IMG/VR virus record: IMGVR_UViG_3300020468_000075 | Span: 1-23,768 of that record | Source: a virus | Length of the DNA: 23,768 bases | Strand: one strand, 5' to 3' | Part shown: piece by piece, positions 1 to 8,923 of the stretch | Layout: every line of letters begins with the position of its first letter | Numbering within the stretch: position 1 is the stretch's first letter | Program-made: the position numbers and the translations under genes | The notes under the pieces: generated by a model | Seen by the model: the letters and a program-made list of their open reading frames with translations, nothing else | Told to the model about the DNA's origin: nothing | The model's database searches: none

Positions 1-46
1 TCAATTAGTATATGTCGATGGAACCATCGGCTGGTTCGAAATTTAG
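1..46 (+). CDS. C-terminal end of a tail fibre protein (partial, runs off left edge)
   Basis: The first 46 bases are the last codons of a gene that begins outside the window; the frame ends in TAG at 44-46. The visible residues (QLVYVDGTIGWFEI) are the same C-terminal signature found at the ends of the fibre genes ending at 2382, 3945 and 5647. This is therefore the tail of another member of that family. At the DNA level it is closest to the gene ending at 5647: bases 5-24 match 5606-5625 exactly. The AGGAG that follows overlaps the stop codon and is the ribosome binding site of the next gene. Confidence 0.85.
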   Translation, partial: QLVYVDGTIGWFEI

Positions 47-55
47 GAGATATAG

Positions 56-853
56 ATGGCAGTTTTAGGAGCAAGTGCAGCAGGAGCACTACCTCAGATA
101 GCGATAACAAATTCAGTAAACTGGACTCCTCCGCAGGACGGTACTTGTGTTTTTCATTTAATTGGAGGAGGCGGTGGTGGCTCTTGTGATAATTCTGGAA
201 GTAACGTAATGGGCGGTGGCGGTGGCGGCTACTCTAAAAAAACGTATGCAGTTACTACGTCTCAAACTTATGCAATTGTAATTGGGGGTGGAGGAGTAGG
301 AGGAGGTTATAGTGGTACCAGAGCAGGGGCTGCAGGTGGACACACTACCATGACTTTAAGTGGAGTTGGTCCTACGATTACTGCAAACGGAGGAGGTGGA
401 GGCACAACAAATGGTTCAGCTTCTGCTGGTGGTGCTTCATCCAATGGTGATGTTAATCGTACAGGAGGAGCTGGAGCATTTTATGGTGGAGGCGCTGTAG
501 GTATTCATGGAACCGGTAACGCTGCTAGAAATAATGTAAATGATAATGGTGGTGCTGGTGGAGGCCATTCAGATGCTATTGCGCCAGAGGGATGGTCTGG
601 TTTTGGTGAAATTACTGGAGGGAAGGGCGGTATAGCTTTTGTAGGGCAAGATAACCGTCATTGGGCAGGTTATTCGTCAGCTGCTCCTGCGTTAGCAGGA
701 GGAGGCTCAATATCCCATAACCCGGAATCACATAATGCTGGTGGGCAACATGGAAGCATAGGCGGTGGCGGTGGCGGAGCTAAGAATTATAATGGACTAA
801 TGTCTGCAGGAAGTGGGGGAGATGGTATAGTACTTATTCAATATACCGCATAA
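56..853 (+). CDS. Glycine-rich phage tail adhesin-like protein (265 aa)
   Basis: The protein is dominated by glycine runs (GGGGGG near residue 38, GGGGGGY near 53, then repeated GGxGG motifs to the C-terminus). Early in the protein is an NWTPP motif followed by a hydrophobic strand leading into the first glycine run, and the C-terminus is of the form GGDGIVLI. The genes at 2392 and 3946 share this plan. In characterised phages such as Salmonella phage S16, glycine-rich tip proteins (gp38) form polyglycine-II sandwiches with receptor-binding loops; a similar receptor-binding role is inferred here. The gene directly follows a fibre gene, with an AGGAG site overlapping that gene's stop. It has no signal peptide or membrane segment and should sit at the distal end of a virion fibre. 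Confidence 0.7.
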   Translation: MAVLGASAAGALPQIAITNSVNWTPPQDGTCVFHLIGGGGGGSCDNSGSNVMGGGGGGYSKKTYAVTTSQTYAIVIGGGGVGGGYSGTRAGAAGGHTTMTLSGVGPTITANGGGGGTTNGSASAGGASSNGDVNRTGGAGAFYGGGAVGIHGTGNAARNNVNDNGGAGGGHSDAIAPEGWSGFGEITGGKGGIAFVGQDNRHWAGYSSAAPALAGGGSISHNPESHNAGGQHGSIGGGGGGAKNYNGLMSAGSGGDGIVLIQYTA

Positions 854-864
854 AGGAGAAAAAA

Positions 865-1188
865 ATGACAACATATGTAATAAAAGAAAGTAATGGAACA
901 ATTATCAATCCAGGCGTAAAAGGCGATCTTGATTTTTGCAAGATAGCTTTTCCGGGAAAAGTCATAGAAGAGCTTAAAGCTCCAGAGCCGAGTGCAGAAG
1001 AAAAAACTGCAAGAGCAACAGCAGAAGAGCGAATATGGAGAGATGCAGAACTTACAAGAACTGATTCTCTTTCACTTCTAGCAGATTTTCCAAAGAAAAC
1101 TGAACTCACTGCCTATCGAAAAGCATTGAGAGACTGGCCTGCGTCTGCAGATTTTCCAACTGAAAGTAAAAGACCAGTGATGGGGTAA
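865..1188 (+). CDS. Phage tail assembly chaperone-type protein (107 aa)
   Basis: The C-terminal half (about residues 57-100) has the pattern W-R-x-A/E-E-L-x-x-T-D ... F ... Y-R-K-x-L-R-D-W-P, typical of the small Phage_tail_APC family of tail or fibre assembly chaperones. The N-terminal half is a short strand-rich segment. A strong AAGGAG site lies 7 bases before the ATG. The same C-terminal domain recurs in the gene at 7904, where the sequence also ends LRDWP.. ADFP, so the two are paralogues with unrelated N-termini. Its place directly after an adhesin-like gene suggests it helps fold or attach that cassette's fibre; this is inference. Its last codons (GTG ATG GGG TAA) also supply the purine-rich stretch ahead of the next ATG. 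Confidence 0.72.
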   Translation: MTTYVIKESNGTIINPGVKGDLDFCKIAFPGKVIEELKAPEPSAEEKTARATAEERIWRDAELTRTDSLSLLADFPKKTELTAYRKALRDWPASADFPTESKRPVMG

Positions 1189-1191
1189 ACT

Positions 1192-2382
1192 ATGCCGTTT
1201 CTAGGAACAACTCCGGGTACTAAAGAAGCAGATTTTAGTATCAATACGATGACAGGCGACAATAGTGATACTACTCTATCATTATCAAAAACGCCTGCCA
1301 ATGAAAACTTTGTGCAAGTATACTATGATGGAGTATATCAGCACAAAGATACTTTTAGTGTTTCTGGAAATACAGTAACGTTTAGCACTGCACCCGCTAC
1401 GGGTGTGAAAGTCGAAGCGATTGTAATGTCGGAAGTTGTTGCTTCAAGTGTTACAACTATTAATGATGATGCAGTAACAACCGCAAAAATATTAAATGCA
1501 AATGTTACAACAGCAAAAATTGCTGACGATGCGATTACAAGTGCGAAGATTGCTGATGATGCAATTACAAGTGCTCTTATCGCTGACGATGCCATTACAA
1601 GTGCTCTGATAGCGGATGATGCGATTACAACTGCACTCATCGCTGACGATGCGGTAGCCGCAGCTCAAATCGCTGATAATTCAGTCGATATTGCTCGGTT
1701 AAATGTATCTGACGGTAGCAATGGACAGTTTCTTCGAACAAACGGCAGTGGAACACTATCTTTTGCGACAGTTTCATCAGAAAAAGCTTACAATGATTGG
1801 GCAGTAAAAACAACTGCTTATACTGCTTCGAATCGAGATCAACTTATTGCAAATGGCGGATCTTCAGTTGCAAAAACATATGCAGTAACAGTAGCAGGCG
1901 GAGTATTTTATCTTGATGGTGTTGCTCAACCAGTAATAACTCTTACAAGAGGAGTAACCTATACATTTACACAATCAGACGGTACGAACAATGGTCATCC
2001 AATTGCATTTAAAGACTCTGGTGGAAGCTCCTATACAACAGGAGTAACTTCAAGTGGAACACCGGGAAATGCGGGCGCAAATACAGTTTTAGTTCTTGCA
2101 GCAAATGCACCTGTTGCAGGATTACGATATTACTGTACTGTGCATGGAAACGGTATGGGAAATACAATCAATGTAGTTGACGATGATTTTACAATTACAC
2201 TACCAGCAGGTTCTGCAGGAAATACAGTAATTATAAAAGCAACTGGTGGTGGTACAACAGTCACTATTGGAAGAAACGGCAGCCAAAAAATTAACAGCGT
2301 TGCAGCAGACGCAACTTTATTTAGTGGTAACGGTGTTCAATTGGTATATGTTGATGACACTGTAGGCTGGTTAGAAATCTAG
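1192..2382 (+). CDS. Tail fibre protein with decapeptide repeats and inserted cupredoxin-like domain (396 aa)
   Basis: Domain order: residues 1-85, a strand-rich N-terminal domain (VYYDGVYQ, FSVSGNTVTFSTAPA) of the kind that attaches fibres to the virion in many phages; residues 91-170, eight ten-residue repeats of consensus ADDAITSAKI; residues 171-192, the segment NVSDGSNGQ..TNGSGTLSF shared with the other fibres here; then a C-terminal module ending in QLVYVDDTVGWLEI. Between DQLIANGGSS and FTITLPAGSAGNTV the module is interrupted by about 105 residues resembling a cupredoxin. The repeats are expected to form an elongated trimeric shaft. It is the only fibre seen here with the long N-terminal domain, so it may be the one directly anchored to the tail, with the shorter genes encoding accessory or alternative fibres. 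Only three bases separate it from the chaperone-type gene before it. Confidence 0.78.
   Translation: MPFLGTTPGTKEADFSINTMTGDNSDTTLSLSKTPANENFVQVYYDGVYQHKDTFSVSGNTVTFSTAPATGVKVEAIVMSEVVASSVTTINDDAVTTAKILNANVTTAKIADDAITSAKIADDAITSALIADDAITSALIADDAITTALIADDAVAAAQIADNSVDIARLNVSDGSNGQFLRTNGSGTLSFATVSSEKAYNDWAVKTTAYTASNRDQLIANGGSSVAKTYAVTVAGGVFYLDGVAQPVITLTRGVTYTFTQSDGTNNGHPIAFKDSGGSSYTTGVTSSGTPGNAGANTVLVLAANAPVAGLRYYCTVHGNGMGNTINVVDDDFTITLPAGSAGNTVIIKATGGGTTVTIGRNGSQKINSVAADATLFSGNGVQLVYVDDTVGWLEI
1462..1701 (+). repeat. Eight tandem 30-bp units encoding fibre decapeptides
   Basis: In-frame units of 30 bases encode ADDAITSAKI-like decapeptides (residues 91-170 of the fibre). The amino-acid repeats are nearly identical in the middle four units, while the codons differ: Asp as GAC or GAT, Ala as GCG, GCA or GCC, Leu as CTT, CTG or CTC. 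The last unit (ADNSVDIARL) is the boundary unit that recurs in the two later fibre genes. The pattern fits a repetitive fibre shaft. Confidence 0.85.
1867..2184 (+). other. Cupredoxin-like domain inserted in the fibre C-terminal module
   Basis: This part of the fibre gene encodes about residues 226-331. Visible type-1 copper-site candidates are His269 (NNGHPIAF), Cys315 (YYCTVH), His318 and Met322 (GNGMG). In plastocyanin the ligands are His37, Cys84, His87 and Met92. The first spacing here is 46 residues against 47, the Cys-His spacing is 3 in both, and Cys-Met is 7 against 8. The strand pattern before Cys (VAGLRYYC) and after Met (NTINVVD) also fits the fold. The flanking sequence is continuous in the paralogous fibres without it, so it behaves as an inserted domain. 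Actual copper binding is not shown. Confidence 0.62.
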
Positions 2383-2391
2383 GAGATATAA

Positions 2392-3357
2392 ATGTCAATT
2401 GTAGGAAATAACACAGCAGGAAGAGCCTTACCAAATATAGGACTTTTTGGCTCACAATCATGGACTCCAGCTTTTAGTATGCAAGCCTATGTATATGTGA
2501 TTGGAGGAGGAGGTTCTGGTGCTGCTAGCGATGATAATACAAATCGTTCTGGAGGCGGAGGTGCCGCAGGATGTGCGATAAGCTTTTTAACACTTTTATC
2601 TTCTGTTACTTATACCGTTACTATTGGAGCAGGAGGAGCACAAAAAACTCCTGATAATGCAGGAGCCAATGGTGGTAATTCTTCTTTATCTGGTTCAAAT
2701 ATAGCAACTATGACGGCCAATGGTGGTATTGGTGGAGCCCAATCAACAAATTCAGCTATTACAGGCGCTGCTGGTGGTGCTGCATCTGGAGGTACTATTT
2801 GTAATAATACAGGCGGAGCAGGAGGCGATGTTCCAAACACAGGAGGAATGGTATCAGGTGGAGGAGCAGTTGGTATATGGGGAACTGGAAATAAAGCTGA
2901 AGGTGGAGGGTATACGGCGTATACTTCTTACCTTGGAGGATCACTAAACTACCCCAACGGCTTTTTTGCTGCTGGTGGTGGTGCATATGGAGGTACAGAT
3001 TATGGCACAGCGGGTAGAGAAGCAACAGCTCCACCGCCCGTATTAGCTCCTTTTGAAGTATTATCTACCTATACTTCAGTAAGCTATGAACTTAATAATT
3101 ATAGAAGAGATACAACACAAATTCAAGTTACTGCTGGTCACGGTGGATATGCTTTTGGGCAAGGTTCAAATTATGGAACATCTGTTTCTGGTCCTTTTTG
3201 TGGAGGAAATGGTTTTTATGGTGCTATTAATGTTAAAGGTACAGCAGGAGGTGGAGGACTTGGAGCCGGAGGTGGAGCGATATTTGGAAACAGTAATTCA
3301 AGGTCTGGTGAGGGTGGTTATGGTGCAGTATTAATATTTCCAGTGGATATGGGGTAA
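2392..3357 (+). CDS. Glycine-rich phage tail adhesin-like protein (321 aa)
   Basis: This has the same plan as the adhesin-like proteins at 56 and 3946: a short lead with a SWTPAF motif, a hydrophobic strand (AYVYVIGGGGSG), a conserved block with TYTVTIGAGGA and GGNSSLSG, then many GGxGG motifs. The C-terminus is GEGGYGAVLIFP. Between glycine motifs, about residues 208-240 form a non-repetitive proline- and tyrosine-rich insert (APPPVLAPFEV ... YELNNYRRD) that has no match in the sister proteins. Such variable inserts between conserved glycine strands are what a receptor-binding tip would show. Its ribosome site (AGGAG) overlaps the stop of the preceding fibre gene, so the two are likely co-translated as a fibre and tip pair. 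No catalytic motif is visible. Confidence 0.7.
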   Translation: MSIVGNNTAGRALPNIGLFGSQSWTPAFSMQAYVYVIGGGGSGAASDDNTNRSGGGGAAGCAISFLTLLSSVTYTVTIGAGGAQKTPDNAGANGGNSSLSGSNIATMTANGGIGGAQSTNSAITGAAGGAASGGTICNNTGGAGGDVPNTGGMVSGGGAVGIWGTGNKAEGGGYTAYTSYLGGSLNYPNGFFAAGGGAYGGTDYGTAGREATAPPPVLAPFEVLSTYTSVSYELNNYRRDTTQIQVTAGHGGYAFGQGSNYGTSVSGPFCGGNGFYGAINVKGTAGGGGLGAGGGAIFGNSNSRSGEGGYGAVLIFPVDMG

Positions 3358-3360
3358 ATT

Positions 3361-3945
3361 ATGGCATCAACACTTATCACAACAAATGTAATCTCGGATG
3401 ACGCAGTAACGGCAGCAAAGCTAGCAAGTAGTGCCGTAGTTACAGCTTCAATTGTTGACGACGCAGTAACAGCAGCAAAGATCGCAGATAATTCTGTTGA
3501 TATTGCACGTTTAAATGTGTCAGACGGTAGCAACGGACAAGCACTTACTACAAACGGTAGTGGTACTCTTTCTTTTGCTTCAGTTGGTGCTGCTGACGGT
3601 AGTATTACAACTGCAAAACTTGCAGACGATGCTGTAACCGCTGCAAAAATAGCAGACAGTGTATCACTTGGAGCTTATACAGCCTGGTCTATTAAAACAG
3701 GCAACTATACTGCAGTGCATAAAGATCAATTGATTGTAAACTCTGGAAGTACAGTCACAATTACACTTCCTTCGAGCCCGAGTGCCGGAGATACAGTAGT
3801 TATAAAGAATGTTGGTGCAGGATCAGTGACAATTGCAAGAAATGGATCAAATATCGAGAGCGCAGCTCAGGACGGTAGCCTCGCATCTACAAAAGCAATG
3901 CAAGTAGTATATGTGGACGGTACTTTAGGATGGAAGGAGATTTAA
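3361..3945 (+). CDS. Short tail fibre protein with decapeptide repeats (194 aa)
   Basis: It lacks the 85-residue N-terminal domain of the 396-residue fibre and starts almost directly in the repeats: residues 12-51 hold four units, ending with the shared ADNSVDIARL. Then follow the shared NVSDGSNGQ..TNGSGTLSF segment, two more repeat units (about 80-101), and the C-terminal module (DQLIVNSGS, TVTITLPSSPSAGDTVVIK, VVYVDGTLGWKEI) without the cupredoxin insert. The protein is likely an elongated oligomeric shaft ending in a beta-rich knob that joins the adhesin encoded next. Without a recognisable anchor it may attach to another fibre rather than the baseplate; that is inference. It follows the previous gene by three bases through the junction ATGGGGTAAATTATG, nearly the same as the junction before the 396-residue fibre. 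Confidence 0.75.
   Translation: MASTLITTNVISDDAVTAAKLASSAVVTASIVDDAVTAAKIADNSVDIARLNVSDGSNGQALTTNGSGTLSFASVGAADGSITTAKLADDAVTAAKIADSVSLGAYTAWSIKTGNYTAVHKDQLIVNSGSTVTITLPSSPSAGDTVVIKNVGAGSVTIARNGSNIESAAQDGSLASTKAMQVVYVDGTLGWKEI
3394..3663 (+). repeat. Two blocks of 30-bp decapeptide-coding repeats in the short fibre
   Basis: Bases 3394-3513 encode four decapeptide units, and about 3597-3663 encode roughly two more. They are separated by the conserved NVSDGSNGQ..NGSGTLSF linker. The units match those at 1462-1701 in protein sequence, but the codons vary. Confidence 0.8.
3535..3560 (+). repeat. Exact 26-bp direct repeat, copy 1
   Basis: These 26 bases, starting ggacaagcac, recur without change at 5147-5172 in the next fibre gene. 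They encode the shared linker GQALTTNGS. Exact identity in otherwise synonymously diverged paralogues marks either recent exchange or a potential recombination point. Confidence 0.85.
3718..3751 (+). repeat. Exact 34-bp direct repeat, copy 1
   Basis: These 34 bases, beginning cataaagatc, are identical to 5420-5453 and encode HKDQLIVNSGS at the start of the C-terminal module. It is the longest exact match I found between the two fibre genes, and it sits exactly where the cupredoxin domain is inserted in the third paralogue. Confidence 0.88.
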
Positions 3946-4914
3946 ATGCCATATGTTTTTGGTGGTGGTGGTGGCGGTGCAGGAGCAAATCTGCCGATTA
4001 TTGCTTTTAAAGACTCAGTAACTTACGTACCTGCATGGACATCAGAAGTAATTGCTTATGTAATTGGAGCAGGCGGAAGTGGAGGTGCTGCACGAGATTC
4101 AAGTGATTGGAGTGCTGGAGCATCAGGAGGAGGTGCAGGTGGCACAGCAATCAGTCGTTTAACTTTAACAGGAGGAGTTAGCTATACCATAGCGATTGGA
4201 GCAGGCGGAGCACGAAAAACTACAACGACTACTCCACAAACAGTAGCAGGAGCTGCTGGTGGAAACTCAAGTTTATCAGGATCTGATATATCCACTATGA
4301 CTGCAAATGGTGGTACTGGTGGTACTGCAAGTACTAGTGCCTCTACTGCAGGAGGAACTGGAGGTTCTGCGTCTGGTGGAAATATTGCAAACTTTACGGG
4401 CGGAGCTGCTGGTGCTGCAAATGGTGCTAGTTATCATTCTTCGGGAGGCGGTGGTGTAAGTCTTTTTAATGTTCCAGCGACGACTACTAGTATCGGAGGT
4501 GCTCCTGCGGGAGGATCTAGTTTTTTGAATTCAACTACCACAACTGCCACAGATGTTACAGTAATGGGTTCAGGGCCGGGTGCAAACACTGATCAAGGAT
4601 ATATCGCTCCTTTTCCTTTTAATATTTCAAATCTTCATCAGAATTATATGCATGATGTTTATCATTTTGGAGCATATGAACTTCCTGCAGGATCTTTGGG
4701 TCATTTAGTACGGAATACTTCATATAGCCATCCTGGCTCTCCTTTTGCTGGAGGGGCTGGAGATGGCTTTGGTCAGACTACAGGTGCTTATGCAGGTGCG
4801 GGAACTTTTGGTTCAGGAGGTGGTGGAGCAACGGTAACAGCTTATTCCACTAATGCGAACAGCGGAGCAGGTGGAAATGGAATAGTCTTCTTTATAACAC
4901 AGACTATCTCCTAG
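3946..4914 (+). CDS. Glycine-rich phage tail adhesin-like protein (322 aa)
   Basis: It opens with an unusual poly-glycine head (FGGGGGGAG at residues 5-13), then LPIIAFKDSVTYVPAW and the strand AYVIGAGGSGG. The conserved block (YTIAIGAGGARK, GGNSSLSG, STMTANGGTGG) is close to that of the 321-residue adhesin. About residues 212-265 form a glycine-poor insert rich in His, Tyr, Asn and Phe (FPFNISNLHQNYMHDVYHF), different from the insert of its sister. The C-terminus is GAGGNGIVFFI. The ATG immediately follows the TAA of the fibre gene, with AAGGAG overlapping that gene's last codons, a strong sign of coupled translation. A receptor-binding tip role is inferred from composition, position and the S16 gp38 analogy. 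Confidence 0.7.
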   Translation: MPYVFGGGGGGAGANLPIIAFKDSVTYVPAWTSEVIAYVIGAGGSGGAARDSSDWSAGASGGGAGGTAISRLTLTGGVSYTIAIGAGGARKTTTTTPQTVAGAAGGNSSLSGSDISTMTANGGTGGTASTSASTAGGTGGSASGGNIANFTGGAAGAANGASYHSSGGGGVSLFNVPATTTSIGGAPAGGSSFLNSTTTTATDVTVMGSGPGANTDQGYIAPFPFNISNLHQNYMHDVYHFGAYELPAGSLGHLVRNTSYSHPGSPFAGGAGDGFGQTTGAYAGAGTFGSGGGGATVTAYSTNANSGAGGNGIVFFITQTIS

Positions 4915-4924
4915 GAAATAAATT

Positions 4925-5647
4925 ATGGCATTTTCAAAAGCACGAAGATTAGCAAATTTGATGAGCACTGGGTCGAATGAAGTTCCAGCGTCAAAACGAA
5001 CACTTGCAGCGGGATCAATTGCAACAGCAGCACTTGCTGATGATGCGATTACCTCTGCAAAAATTGCTGATGATGCGATTATCGCTGCACTTATCGCGGA
5101 TAATTCCGTAGATATTGCACGCCTTAACGTATCCGATGGTAGCAATGGACAAGCACTTACTACAAACGGTAGCGGTACGCTTTCTTTTACTTCAGTTGGT
5201 ACTGCAGACGGTAGTATTTCAACTGCAAAGATCGCAGATGATGCTGTGACAAGTGCGAAGATCGCTGATGATGCTGTGACAACAGCGCTTATAGCAGACA
5301 ATGCAGTTACAACAGCACTTATAGCCGACGATGCTATAACTGCTGCAAAAATAGCAGACAGTGTAGAGCTTGGAGCATATAAGGCTTGGGCAATAAAAAC
5401 TAGTGGGTATACTGCTGTACATAAAGATCAATTGATTGTAAACTCTGGAAGTAGCGTTACAATTACACTTCCTTCAAGCCCTTCTGCTGGCAATACAGTT
5501 ACAGTTCACGCTGGAGGTGCAGGTGCGGTAGTCATTGGGCGAAATGGAAGTAATATTAATTCAACGGCTGACGATGGAAGCCTCGCATCAGGTTCCTCCA
5601 CTCAGTTAGTATATGTCGATGGAACTATCGGCTGGAAGGAGGTTTAG
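4925..5647 (+). CDS. Tail fibre protein with decapeptide repeats (240 aa)
   Basis: The protein has a short basic head (MAFSKARRLANLMS), a first repeat block (about residues 31-67) ending in ADNSVDIARL, the shared NVSDGSNGQ linker, and a second block of about five units (97-146) of consensus ADDAVTTALI. The C-terminal module runs from AYKAWAIKTSGY to TQLVYVDGTIGWKEV. It resembles the 194-residue fibre with more shaft units. The head MAFSKARRLANL is a type of leader seen on phage structural proteins and differs from the starts of the other fibres here. Its end is closest in DNA to the truncated fibre at the left edge of the window. A very strong AAGGAGG site overlapping its final codons serves the large gene that follows. 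Confidence 0.76.
   Translation: MAFSKARRLANLMSTGSNEVPASKRTLAAGSIATAALADDAITSAKIADDAIIAALIADNSVDIARLNVSDGSNGQALTTNGSGTLSFTSVGTADGSISTAKIADDAVTSAKIADDAVTTALIADNAVTTALIADDAITAAKIADSVELGAYKAWAIKTSGYTAVHKDQLIVNSGSSVTITLPSSPSAGNTVTVHAGGAGAVVIGRNGSNINSTADDGSLASGSSTQLVYVDGTIGWKEV
5015..5362 (+). repeat. Two blocks of 30-bp decapeptide-coding repeats
   Basis: Bases 5015-5125 and 5213-5362 encode ADDAIxxAxI-type decapeptides on either side of a conserved linker. Neighbouring units in the second block are more alike in DNA than those at 1462-1701 (for example two units reading gatgatgctgtgacaa), which suggests more recent unit duplication. Confidence 0.8.
5147..5172 (+). repeat. Exact 26-bp direct repeat, copy 2
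   Basis: Identical to 3535-3560; it encodes GQALTTNGS of the conserved linker between repeat blocks. Confidence 0.85.
5420..5453 (+). repeat. Exact 34-bp direct repeat, copy 2
   Basis: Identical to 3718-3751; it encodes the start of the shared fibre C-terminal module. The bases on either side differ between the two copies. Confidence 0.88.
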
Positions 5648-5649
5648 AA

Positions 5650-7893
5650 ATGCCAGTTAAATTAGGCGGAAGCAGTGGTGGCGGTAATCTTACGTTCACG
5701 GAAACGACAGGCACGGCATTAGAAACGCTTGTTGCAGGCGATCAGGTTGAGTTAACGAAGGACGGTGGTTTTGTCAAGAACGCCGATAACTCACGCCCCT
5801 ATTATAGGAATCAAATAGGTGGGAACGGCAGCACCTTCAACACTTGGATTGGGGAAGAGGACGGCACGATTGGCACCGGATCGACTAGCGGTAATTATTA
5901 TATAACCGCAAGTTTTGAAAATACTTCATATCGGAACAATACGTTTTTTGGCGCTCTAAGCAACGGATGGGGAATTGTGTCTTTCAACACAAATAATCAG
6001 AGCTGGACGCAAAATTATTACTATCTAAAAACCTTCAATATGGCGACGGGTGCTTTACAGACATGGTCAGGTGGACACGTCCGTTTGTATCACTATTCTT
6101 ACATCGATAACTGGGGCTGGAAAGAGTTAAAAAACGATGGGACATACACATGGGCTATCGGATGGAATCAAAGGAAGCAGAATACTGGAACAAAATTTTC
6201 CGGTTGGTGTGTAGTGAAGGTTAAAAACAGCAATGGCTACATCGTCGGTGCTCACAGCCCCACAAGCGGCGCAACTTGGGCTTCAAATCTCATACAAGCT
6301 GAGACTCGCAGCATGTCTCCATTTTCGACTATGGCGTGTATTGCTGAAGATATTGTGTGCGTTCCCGATCTGTCAGGCGGCAATCATAGCGCATATGTAA
6401 CGTATAACTTTCATCGAATTCACTTAGACGCAGCAGATACAAGCTCTCAAATAACCAGTTTTAATCAAACCGAAAATTACAATATTCACCAAGAATATGC
6501 ACAGACAGGCTATGCGTATTCTATTCAGCAACATCAAGTCTTCGTCCTAAATTCGTCTACTCGCACTTTCATGTTTGTGCGCCGACTGAACAACACATAC
6601 AACAATACAAACAACCGTCTTCAGTACAAAATCGTTAGCTTTGCAGCAAGTGGAACAACCGTTACCACAAATGTCGATTGGACAACGCTCACAGGCTCAG
6701 ACGAAGGTGGAAATTTAGCTGTCGATAAAATGTATAAAGGCAAGCTGGTTCGCATTAGCAACAATAATTTTGCGGCTATCAACTCAGCATCAGCGACAAC
6801 AACAGAAGTTCAAAAGTTTACTTGGAATGGTTCAGCCATTGCCGAGAATGGTTCTAAATATACAATCACTCATGCGACTAACTACCAGTTCAACGCAGGA
6901 GATAATCTTAGTGGCAACCTTGCCAGCGCATTTTGTGACTGTACAAAAGGCAACGGTGATCAGATTTACTTAATGGCAAGCTCAGGCGCTCAATCGACTG
7001 CGGACTATGGATCTTTTCGATATATTTCAAAACTTGATTTAATTAACAATACTCTTACCGTGATGGACACCAATGATGTCAATGGTGCTGGCACTTATGG
7101 CGATGCGAATGTCAACAGCACTCAAATCGTGGACGGGGCTTTGTATTTCGCGGAACCTACTACGACTAACACGGATCTCAGTTCCAGTGCGGCTTATATT
7201 ACTAAATACCACTCTTGGCATTTCGACATTCAAAGTGGAGTATCAGCCGCAAAAGCCGGAGAAGTAAGTACGGGTGCTGCTCAAGGCGGTACTGCGACAG
7301 TTCAGTTATTTCAAGGCATCAGTTCCGGTTCTGCGCTAAATCCTGCGTACTACGCCACAAAAGAAAATATGCAGTACCTTATGAATGTGGATGGTGCGCC
7401 ACCAGCCGCTGGCGGAGTTGTCTATCCAACGATCAACAAGGTGAATGTTGCGCTAGTAAATCACAATACAACCTGGTATAGCGTTGTTGGAAGCAATATG
7501 TATTCTACCAAGACGGCCAGTATTTACCATACAACCACAACGGATTTTGAGCTTCTTGCCGTGCAGGGGGCGGGGTGTGTAAACGAATGCCATTGGGGAT
7601 TTACGGATACAGGTAGTGTCAGTCACCACACGCAAGTGTTGATCGATGGTGTCATCGTGTACGGCACACAGGCCGCTTATGACAACTACAACTCTGGTAA
7701 TAAACCTAACCATGATCGAAATTATGCATGGTCGTTGAGTCCAGCAACTCTTTACAATCAGACACAGGTAAGCGGCACTTTGTCGCATCCAATAACATTC
7801 AAAAGAAGTTTTGTAATAAAAATCATGGCTCCACCAGCAAATAAATCTTGGATCTGCCGTGCAAGTATTACGAAGTTTGCCACGTTACCGTAA
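5650..7893 (+). CDS. Large phage tail protein, probable distal or receptor-binding subunit (747 aa)
   Basis: I do not recognise a named family. It occupies the slot after a fibre gene that elsewhere holds a glycine-rich adhesin. It keeps only a brief glycine head (LGGSSGGG) and then diverges completely. Residues 20-45 (TTGTALETLVAGDQVELTKDG) look like a small beta domain. About 225-480 show repeated strand units with WNGS, KLDLINNTL and VRISNNNFAAINS motifs, suggestive of a beta-propeller. From about 578 a separate beta-rich C-terminal domain ends in FVIKIMAPPANKSW. It is rich in Tyr, Asn and Thr, with no signal peptide, membrane helix or catalytic motif seen. Base composition looks somewhat more GC-rich than the fibre genes to its left, hinting at separate origin. 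A virion receptor-binding role is inferred from context. Confidence 0.6.
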   Translation: MPVKLGGSSGGGNLTFTETTGTALETLVAGDQVELTKDGGFVKNADNSRPYYRNQIGGNGSTFNTWIGEEDGTIGTGSTSGNYYITASFENTSYRNNTFFGALSNGWGIVSFNTNNQSWTQNYYYLKTFNMATGALQTWSGGHVRLYHYSYIDNWGWKELKNDGTYTWAIGWNQRKQNTGTKFSGWCVVKVKNSNGYIVGAHSPTSGATWASNLIQAETRSMSPFSTMACIAEDIVCVPDLSGGNHSAYVTYNFHRIHLDAADTSSQITSFNQTENYNIHQEYAQTGYAYSIQQHQVFVLNSSTRTFMFVRRLNNTYNNTNNRLQYKIVSFAASGTTVTTNVDWTTLTGSDEGGNLAVDKMYKGKLVRISNNNFAAINSASATTTEVQKFTWNGSAIAENGSKYTITHATNYQFNAGDNLSGNLASAFCDCTKGNGDQIYLMASSGAQSTADYGSFRYISKLDLINNTLTVMDTNDVNGAGTYGDANVNSTQIVDGALYFAEPTTTNTDLSSSAAYITKYHSWHFDIQSGVSAAKAGEVSTGAAQGGTATVQLFQGISSGSALNPAYYATKENMQYLMNVDGAPPAAGGVVYPTINKVNVALVNHNTTWYSVVGSNMYSTKTASIYHTTTTDFELLAVQGAGCVNECHWGFTDTGSVSHHTQVLIDGVIVYGTQAAYDNYNSGNKPNHDRNYAWSLSPATLYNQTQVSGTLSHPITFKRSFVIKIMAPPANKSWICRASITKFATLP

Positions 7894-7903
7894 GGAGAAA
7901 TAA

Positions 7904-8191
7904 ATGGAAATTGTTAGAAATTATACGGCCCCTGAGCGGCTAGAAAACCCTCAAGCTGGGGATCGGGTGAGATATATCGATCATCAGGGTTTTGTCGTTG
8001 ACACTGGATATATGCCGCCTCCCACTGAAGCAGAAGAAGCGCGTCAATGGCGGAATGAGGAGCTTACAGGAACGGACAAATGGATGGCTGTGCCAGATCA
8101 TCCAAAGTTTGAAGCGTATAAAACTTATCGTAAAAAACTACGAGACTGGCCTTCTACTGCGGACTTTCCGAAGACTCGTCCAACTCTTTAA
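7904..8191 (+). CDS. Phage tail assembly chaperone-type protein (95 aa)
   Basis: The C-terminal half (about residues 44-92) carries the Phage_tail_APC-like pattern W-R-N-E-E-L-x-x-T-D-K ... Y-R-K-K-L-R-D-W-P followed by S-T-A-D-F-P. It matches the paralogue at 865-1188 closely in this half only. The N-terminal half (RVRYIDHQGFVVDTGYM) is unrelated to that paralogue's. A TAAGGAG site lies just upstream. It closes the late operon and likely assists assembly of the preceding large tail protein; that pairing is inference. Its last 38 bases are overlapped on the other strand by a small gene, so both proteins constrain that DNA. Confidence 0.72.
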   Translation: MEIVRNYTAPERLENPQAGDRVRYIDHQGFVVDTGYMPPPTEAEEARQWRNEELTGTDKWMAVPDHPKFEAYKTYRKKLRDWPSTADFPKTRPTL

Positions 8192-8312
8192 GCTGTCTCT
8201 CAGCTTCCGCACGTATTTTCAATATCAGTTCCATACTCATCTCAGCGGGCAGTTTACCTAACCCGCTGAGAATAGTATTCACCTCTTGTATTTCAAGTTC
8301 TAGTGTTATCAT
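8154..8312 (-). CDS. Small conserved-looking phage protein (52 aa)
   Basis: The ATG at 8312-8310 overlaps the TGA of the outer-membrane protein gene (ATGA), and the frame ends in TAG at 8156-8154. The product begins MITLELEIQEVNTILSGLGK and continues LPAEMSMELILKIRAEAE. Short proteins with this layout (strand, then EVN.IL..LG.LP, then an amphipathic helix with KI.A.A) occur near tail genes in many marine phages; I recognise the pattern but know no function. There is no clear ribosome site, so translation probably depends on termination and restart at the ATGA. It overlaps the last 38 bases of the + strand chaperone-type gene in antisense. Confidence 0.72.
   Translation of the reverse strand: MITLELEIQEVNTILSGLGKLPAEMSMELILKIRAEAERQLKELDESSESPQ
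8241..8270. terminator. Hairpin between convergent operons, possible bidirectional terminator
   Basis: A perfect 9-bp inverted repeat (ctcagcggg / cccgctgag, 8241-8249 and 8262-8270) flanks a 12-base loop. It lies where the + strand late operon and the - strand operon meet, 50 bases after the stop of the late operon. Neither side has the run of T expected of a classic intrinsic terminator, and the stem lies inside the 52-residue gene. Termination is therefore only a suggestion. Confidence 0.4.
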
Positions 8313-8923
8313 TCGAACGTTTTACTTATATACAATATATAAGAATCTTCTTCATCAGTTATTATTGCTGCTCCTCCAAGTTCAAGAGTAAGCCAGTCTC
8401 GACTAAAACCAACCTCTACATAATCCCCAGAGAAACCCTTTCCGAACTCTCCATACTTCACATAAACACCGTCATATGCCGCAGTCACAGAATAAAAATT
8501 GTAGTCTACACCACCATCTCCATCCCACTTACCCTGCGAATAATCACCATTGATGCTTGCACCCCAGAGTTCAAACCCTGCTCCTGCGTTTGCTTCTTTG
8601 TAGGTCTTGTCAAAGTTGCCAGTATAGCTATATACTGTACCACCTACATATGCGGAGAATCCCCAGACATCGAAACCAATGCTACCATAGGTATCAATCT
8701 CTGCACCATCTCCAACATCAGCAGCCCATCCGCCAACAGTTGCTTCTGTACCGAAGTAAGAAGGCATTGTAGCTTCTACACCAGCAAATGCTGAATTTTC
8801 TTTTTGATGAACTCCACGAAAGTGATAATCCGTCATATATCCAACAGTTGCTGATACATCGCCTTCAAAAGCGATAGCTGCAGGAGTGCAGAAAGCAAGT
8901 AAAAGTACTAATATTTTTCTCAT
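8309..8923 (-). CDS. Secreted outer-membrane beta-barrel protein, Gcw_chp-like (204 aa)
   Basis: Residues 1-18 form a signal peptide: MRK, a hydrophobic core LVLLLAFC, and a likely cleavage site after AIA. The mature protein begins with a strand and the motif VGYMTDYHFRGVHQ, typical of the proteobacterial Gcw_chp (TIGR02001) barrel family. It then alternates short amphipathic strands with Gly/Asp turns and ends YILYISKTFE, close to the aromatic C-terminal signature of barrel proteins. The expected site is the host outer membrane. It follows ribonucleotide reductase by 10 bases, with AAGGAAAAATAAATG as ribosome site, so it is expressed with early or middle replication genes, not with the virion genes. 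Possible roles are receptor masking, superinfection exclusion or altered permeability; none is shown by the sequence. It was probably acquired from a host. Confidence 0.75.
   Translation of the reverse strand: MRKILVLLLAFCTPAAIAFEGDVSATVGYMTDYHFRGVHQKENSAFAGVEATMPSYFGTEATVGGWAADVGDGAEIDTYGSIGFDVWGFSAYVGGTVYSYTGNFDKTYKEANAGAGFELWGASINGDYSQGKWDGDGGVDYNFYSVTAAYDGVYVKYGEFGKGFSGDYVEVGFSRDWLTLELGGAAIITDEEDSYILYISKTFE

Follow-up and report, generated by a model that had tools for sequence, protein, structure and literature searches.

The virus record IMGVR_UViG_3300020468_000075, analyzed at its full length of 23,768 bases (the window), carries in its left 8.2 kb a host-recognition array on the + strand, in which the repeat unit is a shaft gene, a tip gene and, in some units, a chaperone gene. 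We consider it likely that the shafts are adaptors for separate tip proteins bearing short docking peptides, and that a tip body and its chaperone are exchanged as one unit. The evidence consists of gene order, predicted folds, the pairing of peptides with shaft ends, the shuffling of tip bodies, breakpoints in the DNA and chaperones that track the bodies. The first-pass annotation of this DNA had proposed several duplicated fibre-plus-tip cassettes, in which each shaft is followed at once by a distal gene. Duplicated and recombined cassettes with exchangeable tip ends are supported by our analysis, and the gaps between shaft and tip measure 9, 9, 0 and 2 nt in cassettes 1-4. Two Phage_tail_APC tail-fibre chaperone genes (865-1188 and 7904-8191), both above the curated cut-off of PF16778, had been overlooked in the composition of the cassettes. 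The array reads:

2..46, + strand: 3' end of shaft 1; last 14 codons of the C-terminal platform, QLVYVDGTIGWFEI, and stop; the 5' part lies beyond the contig
56..853, + strand: tip 1; 265 residues, glycine-rich; docking peptide MAVLG; predicted TNF-like plus glycine-rich fold; Gly_rich_2, 52.2 bits
865..1188, + strand: chaperone after tip 1; 107 residues; Phage_tail_APC PF16778, 41.2 bits, cut-off 26.6
1192..2382, + strand: shaft 2; 396 residues; ADDAI repeats, cupredoxin-like insert (about residues 222-331), platform ending GWLEI
2392..3357, + strand: tip 2; 321 residues, glycine-rich; docking peptide MSIVG; PF21722, 50.4 bits
3361..3945, + strand: shaft 3; 194 residues; platform ending LGWKEI
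3946..4914, + strand: tip 3; 322 residues, glycine-rich; docking peptide MPYVFG; PF21722, 34.2 bits
4925..5647, + strand: shaft 4; 240 residues; repeats predicted helical, then a predicted XD1-type platform (residues ~150-240) ending IGWKEV
5650..7893, + strand: tip 4; 747 residues, not glycine-rich; docking peptide MPVKLG; probable distant relative of body family 4
7904..8191, + strand: chaperone after tip 4; 95 residues; Phage_tail_APC PF16778, 38 bits, cut-off 26.6

In the proposed mechanism, these 8.2 kb would be the 3' part of an array of repeated units of adaptor (shaft), tip and often chaperone. Each adaptor would possess its own N-terminus, repeats of about ten residues and a C-terminal beta-sandwich platform of XD1 type, where its chain ends; the next module, the tip, would be a separate protein. 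A tip would start with a docking peptide of 5-10 residues and a glycine linker matching the platform subtype, followed by an exchangeable receptor-binding body, and each adaptor would project one tip, attached via this N-terminal peptide. The neighbouring chaperone would serve the body, not the dock, by aiding the folding of the tip body. Recombination at two places, within the codons of the glycine linker and inside or behind the chaperone gene, would swap body plus chaperone while platform and dock stay, and one virus could therefore carry and exchange several binding specificities. Such a tip exchange probably changes what the virus binds. We infer physical docking, trimeric assembly, receptor binding and the presence of all tips on one virion.

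The four shafts terminate in QLVYVDGTIGWFEI (nt 2-46), QLVYVDDTVGWLEI (ending at 2382), QVVYVDGTLGWKEI (ending at 3945) and QLVYVDGTIGWKEV (ending at 5647), and the 46-nt DNA ends of shafts 2-4 are 70-85% identical to that of shaft 1. The shared C-terminal signature claimed earlier is found in all four, but the motif as typed is slightly off: the second shaft has YVDDT, and a valine two positions before the tyrosine occurs in the third only. ADDAI repeats of about ten residues, described previously for complete shafts, are present in all three of these (396, 194 and 240 residues). The comparison set comprised the window and 310 other loci; merging those with an exact kilobase in common reduced the set to 240 groups. 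At E <= 1e-5, searching the 311 loci with a profile of the C-terminal domain recovers 280 open reading frames (ORFs), so the common terminus is not due to chance. In every one of these 280 ORFs the platform lies at the C-terminus of the protein, with 0-4 residues remaining after it. Compared with the PDB, a profile built from 22 C-terminal domains (A1) matches the CBA120 tailspike TSP4 (7rfv, 7rej, 7rfo; E 1.6e-5 to 3.6e-5, residues 100-174) and also the secreted protease CpaA (E 4e-4). The fold of the platform was compared on shaft 4, for which the AlphaFold2 model (33 sequences) gives a predicted local distance difference test score (pLDDT) of 97-98 in the platform and predicts the repeats as helices. 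This model matches residues 78-175 of CBA120 TSP4 (7rej_B; Z 13.0, root-mean-square deviation (rmsd) 1.7 Å over 90 residues), T4 gp9 (1qex; Z 9.9, rmsd 3.9, 114 residues) and T4 gp10 (5iv5; Z 9.2, rmsd 4.1, 116 residues). As modelled, the shaft C-terminus is a T4 gp9/gp10 XD1-type domain, a known assembly module. In TSP4 the linker between XD1 and XD2 lies at residues 179-188, and the relatives of XD1 are gp9, gp10, CpaA and StcE (PMC8825819; this and the other cited articles are drawn on in excerpt). Our platform matches (TSP4 78-175, gp9, gp10, CpaA) agree with these limits and relatives. The best match is XD1 itself; XD2 and XD3 are not among the matches, and likeness to them is still possible.

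Shaft 2 additionally bears an insert (window 1855-2184, residues 222-331) with a weak cupredoxin-like match (Pfam PF25489, 22.8 bits, under the cut-off of 27) and a CxxHx..M pattern; it has no useful match by sequence in the PDB. The insert recurs in 36 loci, in 40 proteins that include 25 platform shafts, and the pattern is kept in 29 of 32 unique copies, suggesting a possible metal site in a phage fibre.

The distal proteins had been described as three glycine-rich paralogues and one unrelated protein. Tips 1-3 match Gly_rich_2 (PF21722) at 52.2, 50.4 and 34.2 bits, over a curated cut-off of 24.3, and contain 29, 25 and 22-23% glycine; tip 4, however, shares its docking N-terminus with other tips and is probably a distant relative of another tip-body family (family 4), as judged from profile comparisons. 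Its first 45 residues match a profile of large tips in loci L009, L010, L314 and L023 (E 2.3e-6, a single comparison), and hhalign aligns it over 500 columns with a three-member profile (A8) of other large tips (E 4.5e-7, probability 92.6, likewise a single comparison). Tip 4 has no match in Pfam, PHROG or NCBIfam, none among PDB sequences, none by peptide patterns in viral contigs and only itself by phmmer against all ORFs of the 311 loci; its self-comparison reveals no internal repeats. No match to tip 3, tip 4 or shaft 4 was found by tblastn in 50,697 phage records, and the sequence comparison of a glycine-rich tip with the PDB gave nothing useful. Elsewhere, on the contig of L027, an ADDAI-repeat shaft is fused in frame to a glycine-rich end (2757-4286 and 6678-8345), and split cassettes stand on the same contig.

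Among the tips, fold comparison was made for tip 1, and matches were also sought with Foldseek. The AlphaFold2 model (49 sequences; pLDDT 88.5) contains no helix and matches Pam3 gp24 (7ypx_A; Z 20.0, rmsd 2.4 Å, 193 residues), the Bxb1 tail tip (Z 16.1) and the glycine-rich domains of ALK/LTK (Z 8-12). According to this model, tip 1 has a tumour necrosis factor (TNF)-like plus glycine-rich fold and shares the gp24 domain; we do not assign it as a gp24 orthologue, given the absence of the N-terminal baseplate-docking helical domain. In S16, a glycine-rich tip gene (gp38) lies directly behind the fibre gene (gp37). A fibre of the S16/T2 type, with a gp37-like trimeric shaft capped by a single copy of a gp38-like glycine-rich adhesin, would have the gene order seen here. 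Yet the best fold matches of tip 1 are Pam3 gp24 and the Bxb1 tail tip, the platform has the XD1 fold of gp9 and gp10, and many bodies without glycine richness use the same docks as the glycine-rich tips. S16 gp38 is absent among the fold matches listed for tip 1, an absence that does not exclude it; its three short N-terminal helices (PMC9608196, in excerpt) contrast with the helix-free model. We regard such a fibre as improbable, and the S16 gp37/gp38 model put forward by the first-pass annotation is not supported in detail.

The adaptor reading is supported by the pairing of shaft tails with tip starts. Dereplication left 196 shafts, and 12 were dropped (4 open at a contig end, 8 too near an edge), giving 184 shaft-tip pairs. 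In 177 of them the tip begins with the peptide that predominates for its shaft-tail class. The classes include QGWVMS with SNFxDF (73/73), IGW[KE]EL with AIxLG (50/51), IGWFEI with VLG (20/20), LGWKEI with PYVFG (4/4) and GWKEV with PVKLG (6/9). Over 177 pairs, normalized mutual information is 0.92 between shaft and dock (shuffles at most 0.21) and 0.43 between shaft and body (shuffles 0.20 on average, 0.28 at most); the shuffles hold the classes fixed and ignore the relatedness of loci. Otherwise unrelated tips carry a short conserved N-terminal peptide: where the dock is the same and the bodies differ, identity between tips is 66-95% over residues 2-8 and no higher than 21% from residue 14 onward, whereas tips with the same body and different docks are 4-17% identical at residues 2-8. 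Ten of the 11 largest among 27 body families sit on two or more docks. In these sequence comparisons tip bodies vary independently of docks.

Exchange of bodies is recorded in the DNA. We screened tips of different dock class in different loci for in-register matches of at least 80% over at least 300 nt and obtained 67, of which 16 cover the tip body; the other 51 are confined to the flanks, 9 of them to the shaft upstream and 42 to the downstream side, and we excluded them from the count of tip swaps. In all 16 body matches identity sets in 6-33 nt downstream of the start codon, at or inside the glycine linker that follows the docking peptide. In 15 of them it extends 140-311 nt beyond the tip stop, reaching into or past the following gene, which is usually a chaperone. 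The clearest swap joins L283 (or L296) and L183, whose DNA agrees at 97.6% along 1039 nt, a stretch that takes in most of the chaperone gene. Each tip is about 300 residues long, and the two diverge at the start alone (SNFSDFISGGGSEV vs AVTLGGAGGGSEV); the upstream shafts are unrelated (~50% identity).

A Phage_tail_APC-like chaperone gene follows 135 of the 158 tips with enough downstream sequence, a count that omits 22 further tips at an edge and 4 left out. The N-terminal part of the chaperone is more than 40% identical in a fraction of 0.912 of 34 pairs with different docks and the same body (glycine-rich family excluded), 0.485 of 1465 such pairs when that family is included, and 0.217 of 722 pairs with the same dock and different bodies. 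This part of the chaperone goes with the tip body and not with the dock, which would be expected of a chaperone serving the body; linkage between body and chaperone contributes to this. Against the PDB, the chaperone profile (A6) yields only weak matches (2kz6, E 0.0031; 2pfm, E 0.87), and comparison with solved chaperones (Mu Tfa, Pam3 gp25) gave no useful match. A gene for a 2OG-Fe(II) oxygenase lies between shaft and tip in L014 (10452-11192) and L016 (PF13640, 33.2 bits over a cut-off of 27, tested in L014), and it might modify the fibre.

Several points weigh against the adaptor reading. The structure models are two single chains (shaft 4 and tip 1), and residues 1-8 of tip 1 have pLDDT < 50. 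Fold searches matched XD1, not the docking domains XD2 and XD3, and according to PMC8825819 (in excerpt) what XD1 does in TSP4 is incompletely understood. No chaperone follows 23 of the 158 tips, tips 2 and 3 of the window among them. Seven of the 184 pairs misfit: three GWKEV shafts, one IGW[KE]EL, one GWAVR and two of five IGFLEI; in two of the GWKEV misfits (L014 and L016) an extra gene separates shaft from tip. The peptide and shaft classes are regular expressions written after the data had been seen, relatedness among the loci makes the counts non-independent, and swap pairs among the 16 have partners in common, so that fewer of them are independent events. Platform and peptide are adjacent, and DNA linkage alone could explain their pairing. 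If the pairing were linkage only, recombination would be guided by glycine-codon homology, and the tip would either attach by its body or have no attachment to this shaft. In favour of this, the coupled stretch is unbroken on the DNA and the breakpoints fall in glycine-rich codons, where recombination would be easy. Linkage leaves unexplained, however, the C-terminal position of the platform in all 280 ORFs, the matching peptide at the start of the next gene in 177 of 184 pairs whatever the body, and the limitation of conservation to about the first 8-13 tip residues; we hold it to be unlikely.

A further proposition is that platform/peptide pairs form a mutually orthogonal docking code, such that each fibre type on one virion would take only its own tip while body-plus-chaperone modules move between codes. 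We advance it tentatively, with some doubt. Tips of one locus mostly have unlike docks (the same dock in 2 of 65 pairs, with 13.9 expected), and no two tips of a locus have identical first five residues (0 of 68 pairs; P = 0.004 for all loci, 0.20 for one per architecture). The difference between docks, strong at first, was no longer significant after collapse to 16 distinct architectures with the first cassette of the window added (3 of 35 pairs vs 4.8; P = 0.27), which again counts against the reading, and cassettes 1 and 2 of the window share one coarse dock class. Orthogonality of docks within a genome is thus unproven.

Arrays are not confined to the window. In 40 loci there are at least two platform-tip pairs; the records holding L191 and L193 have five platforms (five in a row in L191), and those of L244 and L035 (as L099) have four. 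Given these arrays, the suggestion of further cassettes to the left of the window is plausible. They also bear on the idea that a single cassette is functional and the others are silent spares or decaying duplicates. The lack of a chaperone gene behind tips 2 and 3 and the short shaft 3 (194 residues) fit this idea, but the three complete shafts and four tips are intact, closely spaced open frames, and loci with several pairs are numerous; we judge it very improbable.

The array adjoins the ribonucleotide reductase (RNR) gene on the contig of L035 (as L099), where the reductase is 81% identical to that of the window. Of 20 long records with a related reductase, only 3 contain the platform. Among 50 RNR loci that extend 3 kb or more past the gene, the array lies beside RNR in only 2, against 5 with one long fibre and 43 with other content; the count leaves out 29 loci that were too short and one without a readable RNR. 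On these two counts we rejected the array as part of the conserved backbone of this phage. It is a movable host-recognition module, since most phages with this reductase lack it. A single long fibre (1028-1521 residues, ending RYWDGSQW) stands at the place of the array beside the reductase in L089, L093, L096, L098 and L105. Three platforms are found on a 19-kb contig, CABYJX010000028.1 (L314/L315), of the uncultured gammaproteobacterium genome AG-333-E20, a hint of a host for the module.

The remainder of the window is on the - strand and is largely a replication block: ribonucleotide reductase, 5'-3' exonuclease, PD-(D/E)XK nuclease, SbcC-like and phosphoesterase proteins, helicase, ThyX, pyrimidine dimer glycosylase, PhoH, DNA polymerase A, primase and DnaB-like helicase. 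A small gene adjoining the array (8309-8923, - strand) has a signal-like start and a weak match to a TorF-family putative porin (24.8 bits, cut-off 47.15), with one relative only among the 311 loci (L089:7460-8038). An Rfam scan of the window gave no match, and no tRNAs were found.

Attachment of receptor-binding proteins (RBPs) through short peptides to a gp10-like adaptor is a principle already known. In K1-5, K1E and SP6, RBPs attach to such an adaptor via docking hepta- and undecapeptides, and attachment by a conserved peptide has been proposed for Klebsiella phages, the KP34 peptide MALxxLV being as short as 7 residues (PMC6872550). The tips described here, with short N-terminal peptides for a gp10-like adaptor, would work like the K1-5/KP34 scheme, though we do not file the array as a member. 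In that scheme a single anchored protein, equipped with a gp10-like domain, bears the remaining RBPs (PMC6872550), whereas here each tip has its own adaptor gene with an XD1-like domain, a chaperone often belongs to the unit, and up to five units occur. The branched tailspikes TSP1-4 of CBA120 likewise assemble several receptor-binding proteins via gp10-like domains (PMC8825819), and our platform has the predicted fold of XD1 in the N-terminal part of TSP4 (TSP4-N, PDB 7REJ, residues 78-175). In TSP4, XD1 runs within the chain into XD2 and XD3 (PMC8825819), and in T4 gp9 and gp10 too a further domain follows in the same chain; in the shafts none does: the platform is the end of the chain, and a gene of its own encodes the tip. 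The TNF-like plus glycine-rich part of the Pam3 fibre trimer is distal and binds the receptor; the trimer and its chaperone gp25, a modular protein with a variable N-terminal and a conserved C-terminal part, associate in a 3:3 complex (PMC9608196). The fold of gp24 resembles that predicted for tip 1, but gp24 has its own N-terminal helical shaft (PMC9608196), in place of which we find a docking peptide and a separate adaptor gene. Alteromonas phages A5 and V22 have a module of fibre and cognate chaperone common to distant marine phage families; there the receptor-binding head lies within the fibre chain, and no separate tip or docking peptide appears in the excerpts (PMC10579305). Tandem adaptor-tip-chaperone arrays with matched docking peptides were not found in the open-access literature searched, including excerpts of PMC7029224 and PMC10253068. 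The new part is arrays with one adaptor per tip and matched peptide types, together with a base-level record of swaps.

The array offers a rule readable from sequence, in which the shaft tail predicts the tip start and the chaperone follows the body, for finding and pairing RBPs in uncultured phages, and it documents swaps in nature whose breakpoints are resolved to the base. The way in which phages keep different fibre types separate becomes directly testable with small purified domains. If the orthogonal code were true, it would constitute a natural plug-in system, by which a virus population could assort many receptor specificities without remaking the tail.

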